From Bacilli bacterium (GTDB taxonomy: Bacteria; Bacillota_I; Bacilli_A; RF39; UBA660): 64,000 nucleotides of DNA. A model generated the notes under the pieces. The model was not told where the DNA came from. It ran no database searches and saw nothing but the letters and a program-made list of their open reading frames with translations. Location: assembly GCA_017404385.1 (NCBI GenBank), contig JAFRCK010000023.1:1-64000 (forward strand). Reading direction: 5' to 3'. The translations under genes were made by a program, and so were the position numbers. This document shows positions 45,767-51,601 of this stretch, one piece after another. Position 1 is the first letter of the stretch. Every line of letters starts with the position of its first letter.

Positions 45767-45795
45767 TTGAAAATAACTATCTATTATTTTATAAT
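45767..45795 (+). promoter_or_regulatory. dnaB promoter
   Basis: TTGAAA (45767-45772) and TATAAT (45790-45795) are 17 bases apart, just upstream of the GTG start. Confidence 0.7.
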
Positions 45796-45815: not shown

Positions 45816-47099
45816 GTGACTAATATTTTACCAGCTGATACTTATGTTGTTATTAATAAAACAATACTAAGTGAAAGTGATAGAAGAATAATTACTATGC
45901 TTTATCAACCAATTATAGGTGGAATAGCTACCAATTTATATTTTACACTATGTATGGATTTAGATAAAAATGAATTTATGTCTGAAGAAATGTCTCATCA
46001 TCATTTAATGACAATTTTAGGTTTATCATTAGATGAATTAAAAATATCTAGAGAAAAATTAGAGGCAGTAGGATTATTAAAAACTTATTTTAAAGAAAGA
46101 GAAGAAGTAAATAATTATATATATGAACTATTTTCTCCATTATCAATTAATGAGTTTTTTACTCATCCAGTATTAAATGTTGTTTTATATAGTGTAGTAG
46201 GTAAAAAAGAGTATGAAAGAGTTACTAATTATTTTAAAATACCTAAATTAAATATTTCTGATTATGAAGATATAACTAAATCATTTTCAGATGTATTTAA
46301 CAGTAGTCCATCTACAGTATTTGAAAATACATTACAAAATATTAAGGATATAAATAAACTTGGAATTAATATAAATAATAAGATAGATTTTGATTTTTTA
46401 ATATCATCTATACCTAAAGAGACTATTAATGAAAAAACATTTAATAATGATAATAGAAAACTAATTGAGGATTTATCATATATTTATAATTTAAATGTAG
46501 AGGAAATTAAGAATATAGTCTTAAGTTCTTTAAATGATAGATTAATGATTGATAAAACAATGTTAAGAAAAAATGCTAGAAACTATTATTTATATCAGAA
46601 TAATGGTAAATTACCTAGTGTAGTATATAAAAATCAACCAGAATATTTACGTAGTCCGATTGGTAAAGATAGTAATCGGGCTAAAATGATTTATACTTTT
46701 GAAACTACATCCCCATATAATTTCTTAAAAAGTAAGAATAAAGGAACTAAACCTACTGAAAGAGATATGAAACTAATTGAAAGTTTAAGTATAGATTTAC
46801 GATTACAACCAGCTGTTATTAATGTATTAATTGATTATGTTCTTAGAATAAAAGATAATAAATTAGTTAAGAGTTATGTAGAAACAATTGCGGGTCAATG
46901 GAAAAGATTAAATATAGAAACGGCAGAAGAAGCAATGAATCAAGCTGTTAAAGAATCTAAAAAAATAAATAAAACAAAGACAACTTATAAAAAGAAAGAA
47001 AAAGAGTTGCCAGAATGGTTTGATCAAAAAATAGAAAAACAAGAAGTAACTATAGAAGAAGAAAACGAAATGAAAGACTTATTAAAAGATTTTAAATAG
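45816..47099 (+). CDS. dnaB: Replication initiation protein DnaB (Bacilli type)
   Basis: The 427-residue primosome protein that, with DnaD and DnaI, loads the replicative helicase at oriC; it is not the DnaB helicase of Escherichia coli. The N-terminal domain begins LPADTYVVINKTILSESDRR and contains LYQPIIGG. The C-terminal DnaB/DnaD (DDBH2) domain has LQPAVINVLIDYVLRI and YVETIAGQWKR-LNIETAEEA. It starts with GTG at 45816, six bases after AAGGTG. It is followed directly by dnaI, its partner. Its end overlaps the SD of dnaI. Confidence 0.9.
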   Translation: MTNILPADTYVVINKTILSESDRRIITMLYQPIIGGIATNLYFTLCMDLDKNEFMSEEMSHHHLMTILGLSLDELKISREKLEAVGLLKTYFKEREEVNNYIYELFSPLSINEFFTHPVLNVVLYSVVGKKEYERVTNYFKIPKLNISDYEDITKSFSDVFNSSPSTVFENTLQNIKDINKLGININNKIDFDFLISSIPKETINEKTFNNDNRKLIEDLSYIYNLNVEEIKNIVLSSLNDRLMIDKTMLRKNARNYYLYQNNGKLPSVVYKNQPEYLRSPIGKDSNRAKMIYTFETTSPYNFLKSKNKGTKPTERDMKLIESLSIDLRLQPAVINVLIDYVLRIKDNKLVKSYVETIAGQWKRLNIETAEEAMNQAVKESKKINKTKTTYKKKEKELPEWFDQKIEKQEVTIEEENEMKDLLKDFK

Positions 47100-47107
47100 A
47101 GGTGCCT

Positions 47108-48010
47108 ATGAAAGATATTTCTAAGATTAAAAATTTAAAAACTAATAATAAAGAGTTAGAAGAAGAATTTTTTAAAGCTAAAAAAGATCCTACTTTTAAA
47201 GAAATAGTAGATAGAATAGATCTAGATGATAATGAATTAATGAAATATACTTCTAAATTAAAACAAGCTTCTGTAGAACTTGATAATTCAAAAAAAGATA
47301 AAAATTGTTTGTTAAATGAAATTCCAGGTTTTATATTTACTCCATATTTAGTTGATGGTGTACTAAATTTTACATATAAAGCTTCTAAAGAAAAAGAAAA
47401 AGAATTAAATGAAATAGATTATATTAAAAATGGATATAGATTTGAAGTAGCTAAGAATATTAGAAATGCTAGAATGAGTGATATATATACAAATGATAAA
47501 AATAGAATAACTTTAATTAAATGGATTACAAAGTTTATTAAAGAATATAAAAAAGGCGTTGCTTTTAAGGGACTATATTTAAGTGGTAATTTTGGTTCTG
47601 GTAAAAGCTATATAATATCAGCTATGATTAATGAACTTGTTAAAGATGGATATACAGCTGCTTTAGTGTATTATCCAGAATTTCTTAGAATACTTAAATC
47701 ATCATTTAAAACGGATTTTGATGAGCAATTTGATTATGCTAGAAAAGTAGATATATTACTATTAGATGACATAGGAGCTGAAAACTTAACTAGTTGGTCT
47801 AGAGATGAAATATTAGGCCCAATTCTTCAATATAGAATGGATAACAAACTTGCTACTTTTTTTACATCTAATCTTTCTTTAGAAGAATTAGAAGTACATT
47901 TAAGTGAAGGCAAAGAGTCTGTAGATAAATTAAAAGCTAAAAGAATAATTGAAAGAATTAATTATTTAACAGAAGAAATAAAATTAGTTAGTGAAAACTA
48001 TAGAAAATAA
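47108..48010 (+). CDS. dnaI: Helicase loader DnaI
   Basis: AAA+ ATPase that loads the replicative helicase onto DNA, 300 residues. The N-terminal domain (about 1-140) binds the helicase. The ATPase domain has SGNFGSGKSYIISAM (Walker A) and VDILLLDDIGAENL (Walker B), then TSWSRDEILGPILQYR and TSNLSLEEL (sensor 1). GAGGTG is five bases before ATG 47108; a GTG at 47102 lies in it. Together with dnaB it forms a conserved Bacilli primosome operon. Confidence 0.92.
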   Translation: MKDISKIKNLKTNNKELEEEFFKAKKDPTFKEIVDRIDLDDNELMKYTSKLKQASVELDNSKKDKNCLLNEIPGFIFTPYLVDGVLNFTYKASKEKEKELNEIDYIKNGYRFEVAKNIRNARMSDIYTNDKNRITLIKWITKFIKEYKKGVAFKGLYLSGNFGSGKSYIISAMINELVKDGYTAALVYYPEFLRILKSSFKTDFDEQFDYARKVDILLLDDIGAENLTSWSRDEILGPILQYRMDNKLATFFTSNLSLEELEVHLSEGKESVDKLKAKRIIERINYLTEEIKLVSENYRK

Positions 48011-48027: not shown

Positions 48028-49599
48028 ATGTATGAAATAATAAGTTTATTCAAAAAAGATGTTCCAAGACAAAGAAAAGTTTATCAAGAATATAATAATT
48101 ATTCAAAGATAAAGAATCTTTCTTATGCCAATTTTAAATCACTAAATATTGCTTTTATTGAGATAAAGGATTATATCGCAAGTTTAGATGAATATTATTA
48201 TTTGTCTGAAAATCAAATAGATAATATGTTTGATTATTTAAAAGAGAATATTAGTATAAGTAGATTTACTCAAATGAAAAAATTATTTAAGCAGGTAAAT
48301 GAATTAAGTGAACTTTTGAGTAATAAATATAATAGTTATGGATGTTTACACGGTGAACAATCAAGAAATAATTGTTATAGAATAATTAATAAAATTAATA
48401 GTTTAAAAGATATATTAGCTATGAAGTATTATAAAATGCCTGCTATGAAAATAGAGCAAATATCTATTTTTGAAAGTATAACTGGTCAATTATTAAATCC
48501 CAAGAACATGAATTTTGAAGAACATTTATTATTTTTAATTACTAACGCTGAAGTGTTAAATTATCATAACAGAAATGGATCTGATTTTAATAAAATATTT
48601 TGTAAACATGTAGAAACAGCAAAAATAAATAGAGAAAATACTAAACTAAATTATTATAAAAAACTATATTTATATTTATCTAGTGTTAATTCTTTTAATC
48701 TAGATACTGAATATCTAGATAGTTTATTTGAATTAAATAGAATTGAAATACAAAGAAATGTTTTAAGTAAGAAAATAGATTCTATGAAATATCATCCTAA
48801 AACAGGCAAAAGAATTGTTGATAACTTTATATTATCAATAGATAATAATGAAACTAAAAAGATAGATGATGCATTTTCAATCGAAAAAGTAGATGATGCA
48901 TATATAGTAGGTATACATATTGCTGATGTTTGTTCATTAGGTTATTTTGAAGAAAATGATTTTACTATTGGACCAAAACATAATGTTAAAAAGAAAGATG
49001 CATCTTTAACAAGAAATAAAGAAAGAGATGCAATTAGTTTATTTGTTTTAATAGATAGTAATGGGATAATTAGGGGATATAGAAAACTAGCAACTACACT
49101 TGTAAATGATGTTAATTTAGTATATGATGATATTCCTAAAATACTTGCTAATCGTGATCCATCAAATTACTATTTGTTACAAAGTGTATATAACTTAATA
49201 TCAGTTTATAATTTACTTGAAAATGATAGATTTCCTTCATATCCTACAGTTAGTAACTTAGGCTATGTAATTGTAAGTAAATTAATGGTACTTTGTGGTG
49301 CTATATATTCTTTTGAACTAGCTAAGAATAATGCTCCTGCGATATATATATGTGGTGATGATGATTGTAAACATTACTCAATTGAGGAATTAGAGTTTAG
49401 AACAGGATTTGATGGTTATAATAATTATGCAAGAGTCACATCACCTATAATAGATAGATTATCGTTAATAAATCAGTTTTTTATACGTACGTGCTTGTTT
49501 GGTAATATGACTGAAGAACAAAAGGGTAAAGCAGTTTTAAAGCTAAGACCAATAGTTGATAAATTTAATAAGAGTAAAGATAAAAAAGAATTATATTGA
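48028..49599 (+). CDS. Divergent RNB-domain (RNase II-like) protein
   Basis: A 523-residue protein of which residues about 265-500 resemble the RNB exoribonuclease domain: SIDNNETKKIDDAFSIE, GIHIADVCSLGYF and a late VTSPIIDRLSLINQFF. In RNase II the four acidic residues D201, D207, D209 and D210 bind metal; here D272, D280 and D281 fit, but the D207 position is Lys278, and the TSPIR motif has Ile instead of Arg (471-475). The N-terminal 250 residues have no CSD or S1 domain that I can see. It lies between dnaI and thrS, where Bacillus has ytxC. It ends in TGA, inside the thrS promoter. Confidence 0.8.
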   Translation: MYEIISLFKKDVPRQRKVYQEYNNYSKIKNLSYANFKSLNIAFIEIKDYIASLDEYYYLSENQIDNMFDYLKENISISRFTQMKKLFKQVNELSELLSNKYNSYGCLHGEQSRNNCYRIINKINSLKDILAMKYYKMPAMKIEQISIFESITGQLLNPKNMNFEEHLLFLITNAEVLNYHNRNGSDFNKIFCKHVETAKINRENTKLNYYKKLYLYLSSVNSFNLDTEYLDSLFELNRIEIQRNVLSKKIDSMKYHPKTGKRIVDNFILSIDNNETKKIDDAFSIEKVDDAYIVGIHIADVCSLGYFEENDFTIGPKHNVKKKDASLTRNKERDAISLFVLIDSNGIIRGYRKLATTLVNDVNLVYDDIPKILANRDPSNYYLLQSVYNLISVYNLLENDRFPSYPTVSNLGYVIVSKLMVLCGAIYSFELAKNNAPAIYICGDDDCKHYSIEELEFRTGFDGYNNYARVTSPIIDRLSLINQFFIRTCLFGNMTEEQKGKAVLKLRPIVDKFNKSKDKKELY

Positions 49600-49631: not shown

Positions 49632-49826
49632 TAAATCTTATTTGAAGACGAGATTATTTAATGATTCTTTATAGAGAGTTAACGTTTGGTGGAAGTTAAT
49701 AGATAGTTAAATAGTTACTACTTCAATAGAGGAATAATAATTCCCGGTTAAAAGCCGTTATCTAATTAAGTTAAATAAAGGATGGTACCGCCATTATGGC
49801 TCCTTGGTAACCATTCTTTTTTTTAT
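49632..49826 (+). ncRNA. T-box leader of thrS
   Basis: A tRNA-sensing riboswitch that permits transcription of thrS when uncharged tRNA-Thr binds. Visible parts are the stem I AGAGAG and TTTGGTGGAAG elements (49674-49695), the probable specifier ACT at 49717-49719 (Thr), the T-box AAGGATGGTACCGCC at 49778-49792 and a terminator made of ATGGTACC/GGTAACCAT followed by a long T run (49815-49825). The antiterminator uses the T-box sequence instead. The specifier choice is my reading; ACT is repeated, so its exact place is not certain. Confidence 0.87.
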
Positions 49827-49843: not shown

Positions 49844-51601
49844 ATGATTAATTTTAAAGAAGATGAGTATTTACACAATTTAAACCATAGCTGTGCGCAT
49901 ATGCTTGCGCAAGCTGTAAAACATTTATATCCAAATGCTAAATTTTGGGTAGGACCAGTAATTGAAGAAGGTTTCTATTATGATATGGATTTAGGTGATA
50001 AAGTTATTACTGAAGAAGATATTCCAGTTATAGAAAAGGAAATGAAAAAATTAGCTAAAGATGGTAAAAGAATAGTAAGACATGAATTATCAAGAAAAGA
50101 AGCATTAGAAATGTTTAAAGATGATCCATATAAAGTAGATTTAATTAATAATATGCCAGAAGATGAAATAATATCTGCATATTCACAAGGAGATTTTACT
50201 GATTTATGTAGAGGTGGACATGTTGATACATTAAAAGAATGTAAAAATTTTAAATTAGTTAAGTTTTCAGGAGCATATTATAAAGGTGATTCAAATAATA
50301 AAATGCTTCAAAGAATATATGGTGTTTGTTTACCAACTCCAGAAGAATTAGAAGCACATTTAAAAGAATTAGAGGAAGCTAAAGAAAGAGATCATAGAAA
50401 AATAGGTAAGGATCAAAACTTATTCTTTACTCATAAATTAGTAGGAGCAGGACTTCCATTATTTACTCCAAATGGAGCAACTATAAGAAGAGAACTTGAA
50501 AGATATATTCAAGATAAAGAAATAAAACAAGGATATAAACATGTTTATTCACCAGTACTTGCTACTACAGAAATGTATAAGATAAGTGGTCACTGGGATC
50601 ATTATAAAGATGATATGTTTCCTATTATGAAACTAGATAATGAAGAATTAGTTTTAAGACCAATGAACTGTCCTCATCATGCATTAATATATAAAAATGA
50701 TTTACACTCATATAGAGATTTACCTTTAAGAATAGGAGAAATCGCTAATGTATTTAGATATGAAGCAAGTGGAGCAGTATGTGGTCTTGAAAGAGTTAGA
50801 GAAATATGTCAAAATGATGCACATTTATTTGTTAGACCTGATCAAATTAAAGATGAAGTAGGGAATGTTATTAAATTAATATTTGAAACTTATATAGATG
50901 ATTTTGGTTTCTCAAAAGACTGCTTTAAATTTAGATTATCTAAAAGAGATAAAGATAAGGCTAAATATATAGATAATGATGAAATGTGGGAAACAGCAGA
51001 ATCTCAGTTAAAAGCAATCATGGATGAATTAGAACTTGATTATTATGAACAAGAGGGCGAAGCAGCATTCTATGGACCAAAGATTGATATTCAAATAAAA
51101 ACTGCTTTAGGACATGATATAACAATTCCAACTTGTCAATTAGATTTCTCTTTACCAGAAAGATTTGATTTGACTTATGTAGATGAAAATGGTAATAAAG
51201 TAAGACCAGTTGTTATTCATAGAGCGATACTTGGTTCATCTGAAAGATTTATGTCATTCTTACTTGAAGAAAAGAAAGGTATACTTCCTTTATGGCTAGC
51301 GCCAGTTCAAGTTAATATAGTACCAGTAAATAATGAATATCATTTAAGATACGCAAAAGAAATAGAAGAATTATTACAAAAGAATTTAATAAGAGTAGAA
51401 CTAGATGATAGAGATGAAAAATTAGGTTATAGGTTAAGAAAATCTGTTATTAAAAAGATTCCTATTACTTTAATTCTAGGTGATAAAGAAAAAGATAATG
51501 AACAAGTGTCATTTAGAAGATATGGTTCAGAAGAAACAATAACTGTTTCAAAAGATGATTTTGTTACATTAATTAAAAATGAAATAAATAATAAGAAATA
51601 A
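49844..51601 (+). CDS. thrS: Threonyl-tRNA synthetase, without TGS domain
   Basis: Charges tRNA-Thr with threonine and edits misacylated Ser-tRNA. The 585-residue protein begins with the editing domain (HSCAHMLAQAVKHLYP, DFTDLCRGGHV with the zinc-like CRGGH), followed by the class II catalytic core with FRYEASGAVCGLERVRE-type motif 2 and MNCPHH, and the anticodon-binding domain near the C-terminus. Most bacterial ThrRS proteins have an extra N-terminal TGS domain of about 60 residues; it is absent here and the AGGAGGA site fixes the start. It is controlled by the T-box upstream. Confidence 0.93.
   Translation: MINFKEDEYLHNLNHSCAHMLAQAVKHLYPNAKFWVGPVIEEGFYYDMDLGDKVITEEDIPVIEKEMKKLAKDGKRIVRHELSRKEALEMFKDDPYKVDLINNMPEDEIISAYSQGDFTDLCRGGHVDTLKECKNFKLVKFSGAYYKGDSNNKMLQRIYGVCLPTPEELEAHLKELEEAKERDHRKIGKDQNLFFTHKLVGAGLPLFTPNGATIRRELERYIQDKEIKQGYKHVYSPVLATTEMYKISGHWDHYKDDMFPIMKLDNEELVLRPMNCPHHALIYKNDLHSYRDLPLRIGEIANVFRYEASGAVCGLERVREICQNDAHLFVRPDQIKDEVGNVIKLIFETYIDDFGFSKDCFKFRLSKRDKDKAKYIDNDEMWETAESQLKAIMDELELDYYEQEGEAAFYGPKIDIQIKTALGHDITIPTCQLDFSLPERFDLTYVDENGNKVRPVVIHRAILGSSERFMSFLLEEKKGILPLWLAPVQVNIVPVNNEYHLRYAKEIEELLQKNLIRVELDDRDEKLGYRLRKSVIKKIPITLILGDKEKDNEQVSFRRYGSEETITVSKDDFVTLIKNEINNKK

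Follow-up and report, generated by a model that had tools for sequence, protein, structure and literature searches.

Introduction

RNase II and RNase R are exoribonucleases in which OB/cold-shock domains precede the RNB domain and an S1 domain follows it. The active site of RNase II consists of Asp201, Asp207, Asp209 and Asp210 together with Arg500, and a D209N substitution abolishes its activity (PMC3293843). The yeast protein Ssd1 is a pseudonuclease with an RNB fold that has lost all four acidic residues, a loss that accompanies the loss of activity, and that retains cold-shock and S1 domains with blocking insertions (PMC8934651). RNB pseudoenzymes have thus been described from fungi, and we found none from bacteria in the open-access literature searched.

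Here we describe a gene located within a 64,000 nucleotide stretch (hereafter the window) of contig JAFRCK010000023.1 of a Bacilli bacterium (assembly GCA_017404385.1; GTDB lineage RF39; UBA660). Its product shares the RNB fold, the motif IDxxxxxxxDDA, the TSPI motif and three of the four active-site aspartates with RNase II and RNase R. Unlike those enzymes, it has no OB, cold-shock or S1 domain, its RNB domain is shortened and preceded by an all-helical N-terminal region, and its gene lies behind dnaI in a genome that encodes a normal RNase R separately. We use the label RNBx, coined here, for proteins with an all-helical N-terminal region and an RNB domain, without cold-shock or S1 domains, and encoded mostly directly behind dnaI; the window protein has all of these features, gene position included.

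Genomic context of the window gene

The open reading frame that a preliminary description had reported at this locus is real (plus strand, ATG start, 523 amino acids) and its coordinates are exact. The gene and its neighbourhood are annotated as follows.

45767..45795, + strand: promoter-like site TTGAAA-17-TATAAT before dnaB (a consensus match only; the surrounding region is overall not enriched)
45816..47099, + strand: dnaB, helicase-loading/DNA-remodelling protein, upstream of dnaI (NCBIfam 2.7e-85, under the curated cut-off)
47102..48010, + strand: dnaI, helicase loader (NCBIfam primosomal protein DnaI, above cut-off), ending 17 nt before the RNBx gene
48028..49599, + strand: RNBx gene, helical N-terminal region plus degenerate RNB domain
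48028..48810, + strand: N-terminal region, aa 1-261; modelled by AlphaFold2 as all alpha, without a Pfam family, pI 9.15
48811..49572, + strand: RNB domain, aa 262-515, shorter than that of RNase R
48841..48870, + strand: metal-site motif D272-NNETK-K278-I-D280-D281, with K278 at the Asp207 position
49438..49455, + strand: TSPIID motif, aa 471-476, with I475 at Arg500 and D476 at Arg/Lys501
49636..49807, + strand: T-box leader of thrS (Rfam RF00230, 60.8 bits, E=4e-13; the gathering score of 93 is not reached)
49844..51601, + strand: thrS, threonyl-tRNA synthetase (NCBIfam TIGR00418, above cut-off)

Since a T-box leader precedes thrS, the unit to which the RNBx gene belongs would end before thrS. 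The positions of the promoter-like site and of the T-box leader would be consistent with dnaB, dnaI and the RNBx gene forming one unit. The T-box leader is clear despite scoring under the Rfam gathering score; the genome is AT-rich.

The gene had been thought to replace ytxC between dnaI and thrS. This cannot be upheld for this class, because YtxC was absent from all 60 relatives searched (the B. subtilis control was positive). The window protein has no match to the YtxC Pfam family (PF08812). In genomes without RNBx the slot is never occupied by YtxC; it holds M23 peptidases, a tRNA-guanine transglycosylase, a glycosylase, a serpin and others. In the congener G038 the gap between dnaI and thrS contains two ORFs of 361 and 337 amino acids without Pfam matches (L042:1417-3525), and ORFs of similar sizes are found in the slot in several further congeners.

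The N-terminal region of B. subtilis DnaI is a zinc-binding helicase-interaction domain. In the window's genus, none of the 12 DnaI proteins (including that at 47102-48010) has the N-terminal CxxC motif, which is present in 86 of 87 DnaI proteins from other genera of the same family. The Pfam DnaI_N model has no match anywhere in the window genome.

Domain architecture and predicted fold

RNB (PF00773; 2.8e-12, 47 bits against a cut-off of 29.3) is the only credible Pfam match in the window protein, and the RNB profile matches 36/36 relatives. The NCBIfam RNase_R equivalog model (TIGR02063) matches at 1.1e-10 with 40.4 bits, against a curated cut-off of 597.85. Neither a cold-shock nor an S1 domain is detectable in the window protein, as had been noted from the sequence for its N-terminal region, and Pfam finds both in the RNase R of the same genome, which served as a positive control. 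That RNase R, whose existence had been posed as a question, is a normal protein of 708 amino acids encoded on another contig, C26 (L040:3827-5953); it has OB, CSD2, RNB and S1 domains (Pfam) and carries the four aspartates and the arginine.

An AlphaFold2 model of the window protein, built from 36 relatives and of moderate confidence (pLDDT 78, pTM 0.56), is entirely helical over residues 1-250 and RNB-like over the remainder. The structural comparison proposed earlier gave Foldseek probabilities of 1.00 to RNase R, RNase II, Dis3L2 and Ssd1, and Rrp44 was also matched. Measured over the whole query, TM scores were 0.3-0.4, since nothing in the matched structures corresponds to the N-terminal half. 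A relative with glutamate at position 207 (RNase II numbering; hereafter Glu-type) yielded a better model (pLDDT 86, pTM 0.72) and an identical Foldseek list. The helical region itself belongs to no Pfam family, has no Foldseek match outside the RNB part and has no match to PDB sequences above coiled-coil noise; no profile backs a faint ankyrin-like resemblance. Judged by its domains, residues and scores, the window protein belongs to the RNB fold family and lies outside RNase R and RNase II.

Active-site residues

Alignment with RNase II of E. coli MG1655 bears out the residue assignments made previously: D201, D209 and D210 correspond to D272, D280 and D281, D207 corresponds to Lys278, and the arginine of TSPIR (Arg500) corresponds to Ile475. 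The window protein therefore lacks both the complete set of four aspartates and the Arg500 that characterise RNase II and RNase R exoribonucleases. The loss extends beyond positions 207 and 500. R501, D504 and two RNB histidines are gone in the window lineage, and the window protein itself has lost R501, D504, H463, H533 and H543 (histidines in the numbering of its own RNase R). All 26 RNase R controls (10 from the window's family and 16 from other bacteria) keep the four aspartates and the arginine, and also keep the other catalytic positions lost in the window lineage. Among 85 RNB columns that are invariant in RNase R, the window protein retains 38% and Glu-type RNBx members 55% on average.

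RNBx is a family encoded mostly behind dnaI

A protein search of 145 genomes from the window's family gave two clear homologues, each encoded behind dnaI, and peptide patterns derived from the window protein alone found no close homologues in the genome contigs searched. We then used dnaI as an anchor, inspected 84 dnaI loci and built a profile from the proteins found. Of these loci, 36 have an RNB gene within -22 to +88 nt of dnaI; one of them (L086) encodes a full RNase R-like protein, leaving RNBx at 35/84. In a class-wide sample of 296 genomes, matches that span the model into the N-terminal region were confined to the window's family, and matches outside it were limited to the RNB part of RNase R. 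The relatives with names are MAGs of uncultured Bacilli, found chiefly in the guts of ruminants and rabbits, and dnaI is directly upstream of RNBx at 39/39 of their loci; these 39 were found with a pattern from Glu-type members, so the residue proportions given below for the family are biased towards that type. We found no description of such a bacterial family in the open-access literature searched, and RNBx, which comes from uncultured gut bacteria, is apparently an undescribed family.

Not all RNBx genes are next to dnaI: at least eight have another genomic location (L035, L238, L240-L243, L247 and L249). Neighbours of about 460 amino acids initially suggested a link to replication genes, being DnaA-like by length only; they are FAD oxidoreductases, a MiaB-type radical SAM protein and an HD-domain protein. 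Two of the relocated genes (L242:1483-3420 and L243:2104-4095) encode the sole two RNBx proteins with Asp at position 207, and each is directly upstream of an FAD-dependent oxidoreductase gene. A 794 amino acid protein encoded 5 nt behind dnaI (L064:1445-3829) matches the RNBx profile at 2e-7 and no Pfam family, and is possibly an extremely diverged member. L083:2217-4724 (835 aa) and L086:3110-5437 (775 aa) encode second RNase R-like proteins with four aspartates and the arginine and no convincing cold-shock or S1 domain. Their genes lie 913 nt and 20 nt behind dnaI, respectively; with intact sites and a place on the RNase R side of the tree, they may represent a second recruitment of an RNase R-like gene to this position.

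Variation of the active site across the family

We surveyed the active site in 79 distinct RNBx proteins. Position 207 is Glu in 43, Asp in two and a gap in two, and the other 32 carry 14 different residues. D201 is present in 79/79, position 209 is Asp in 71 and Glu in eight, D210 is Asp in 73 and R500 is Arg in 74. The remainder of the site is intact in the 43 Glu207 members, which are possibly active, judging by their residues. Glu-type members such as L117 (1448-3391) and L036 resemble the window protein in being encoded next to dnaI and in combining a helical N-terminal region with an RNB domain without cold-shock or S1 domains, and they match the window group at the profile level (E=2.3e-37) in the RNB domain and the last part of the helical region. 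They differ from it in having a longer RNB domain and the full D201-E207-D209-D210-R500-R501-D504 constellation. Given that this constellation is kept, the family probably descends from an active ancestor.

Members without an acidic residue at 207 have often lost further site residues too. In a deduplicated set, an acidic 207 goes together with retention of R500, R501 (or Lys), D504, D209 and D210 in 25/25 proteins, and among the 31 without it R501 is kept in 11 and D504 in 10. The pattern is two-state, with sites either intact or decayed. The association of the loss of 207 with the loss of 501/504 always runs in one direction; when kinship is respected, it comes down to three supported independent pairs and is not significant.

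A tree was inferred by a quick search with the catalytic columns excluded. L083 and L086 fall with the RNase R proteins in a group that has 99% support and excludes the window protein. RNBx requires two changes on this tree, one being still allowed, and a single origin is likely. Terminal branches are several times longer in RNBx than in RNase R. Within RNBx the tree requires at least eight switches between acidic and non-acidic residues at position 207, so this change is a repeated one on this tree, in which many branches are weak. Several RNBx branches thus seem, from their residues, to have turned from enzyme into non-enzyme. The window protein is not a single deviant but one branch of a repeatedly decaying family.

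The window branch

In the congeners G724 and G725, orthologues occupy the position of the window gene, and the window protein clusters with G105 and G093 (96-97%). A search for the same substitutions in relatives had been suggested, and Lys at 207 indeed recurs in G724, G725 and G105. G093 has Val there and is 267 amino acids long, with nearly all of the N-terminal region missing. The R500 position is Ile in the window protein and G724, Trp in G725, Tyr in G105 and Thr in G093. D272, K278, D280 and D281 are invariant in four orthologues, two of which are just 33-34% identical to the window protein. This branch is among the most altered of RNBx. Between the window and G724, dN/dS is 0.35 (bootstrap 0.27-0.47), a rough figure because dS is about 0.94 and near saturation, and identity is 59% for RNBx, 85% for DnaI and 95% for ThrS. 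The window gene is therefore constrained but fast-evolving. Nine of 12 congeners have other genes or none at the dnaI locus in place of RNBx, so a gene of this type is dispensable.

Discussion

We conclude, with a probability of roughly 60%, that the window gene is a real, selected gene encoding an RNB-fold pseudoenzyme. Catalytic residues are lost and the fold is retained, as expected of a pseudoenzyme of the RNase II family. The preliminary description had left open whether the protein is a pseudoenzyme, an RNA-binding protein or a nuclease with different metal use. The pseudoenzyme reading is the best supported, given Lys at 207, the varied residues at 500 and the loss of R501, D504 and the histidines against 26/26 intact controls; different metal use fits the window protein poorly and is a real possibility for the 43 intact-site Glu207 relatives.

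An active nuclease, in which D272, D280 and D281 hold metal and another basic residue replaces Arg500, is nonetheless worth weighing: the three aspartates are kept in every orthologue of the window branch, an Arg lies two residues past I475 in the window protein and G724, and Glu-type relatives have the complete constellation. The nearby Arg is not conserved at that position in G105 or G725, however, and we found no conserved replacement. A lysine at a metal-ligand position disfavours metal binding, and the further catalytic residues have been lost as well, which makes this explanation improbable, even if the three remaining aspartates could conceivably form a residual or altered metal site. 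That the protein is simply a divergent RNase R with a misjudged alignment is refuted. The RNase_R match noted above is the one point in its favour, and it falls far short of the cut-off (40 against 598 bits); the absence of cold-shock and S1 domains, the complete RNase R encoded separately and the supported RNase R group that excludes the window protein all count against it.

The gene might instead be a relaxed and useless leftover of a formerly active RNBx enzyme, heading for loss. Its fast evolution relative to DnaI and ThrS, the dnaI loci of congeners that lack it, and truncated or fragmentary copies elsewhere (the short G093 protein and a 248-aa remnant in G072) are what such decay would produce. 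Yet dN/dS is clearly below 1, the reading frame is intact in five genomes, and in the window branch invariant columns are more frequent in the RNB half (66/250) than in the less conserved N-terminal half (25/235). Moreover, the altered D-K-DD motif is itself conserved while most of the protein has changed, which argues against plain decay, and we consider this explanation unlikely.

As a selected pseudoenzyme, the window protein would no longer degrade RNA processively, going by what is known of RNase II. Lys278 may occupy the space of a metal-binding carboxylate or neutralise one, and D272, D280 and D281 may persist as a structural salt-bridged remnant. The protein might now act by binding RNA, DNA or another protein, coordinated with the DnaB/DnaI helicase-loading operon, a suggestion drawn from gene order. 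A functional link between RNBx and DnaI is weakened because some RNBx genes lie away from dnaI and the gene is often lost. The closest analogue appears to be Ssd1 (Foldseek match to the window model at 2.6e-7), which lost all four acidic residues and kept cold-shock and S1 domains (PMC8934651), whereas the window protein keeps three aspartates and has neither domain. One protein is eukaryotic and the other bacterial, and apart from their membership of the RNB family nothing points to a shared origin.

More broadly, and tentatively, RNBx could be a new RNB subfamily that partners the dnaB-dnaI operon in one uncultured Bacilli family, in which Glu-type members are E-for-D nucleases without cold-shock and S1 domains and several branches, including that of the window, have independently become pseudonucleases with a non-catalytic role at replication initiation; we consider this wider proposal possible but less likely than not. 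The family offers many branches between possible enzyme and likely non-enzyme at the same gene position, and so allows one to ask what outlasts catalysis. Being tightly coupled to dnaI, it also points to a connection, open to testing, between an RNB protein and helicase loading in small-genome bacteria.
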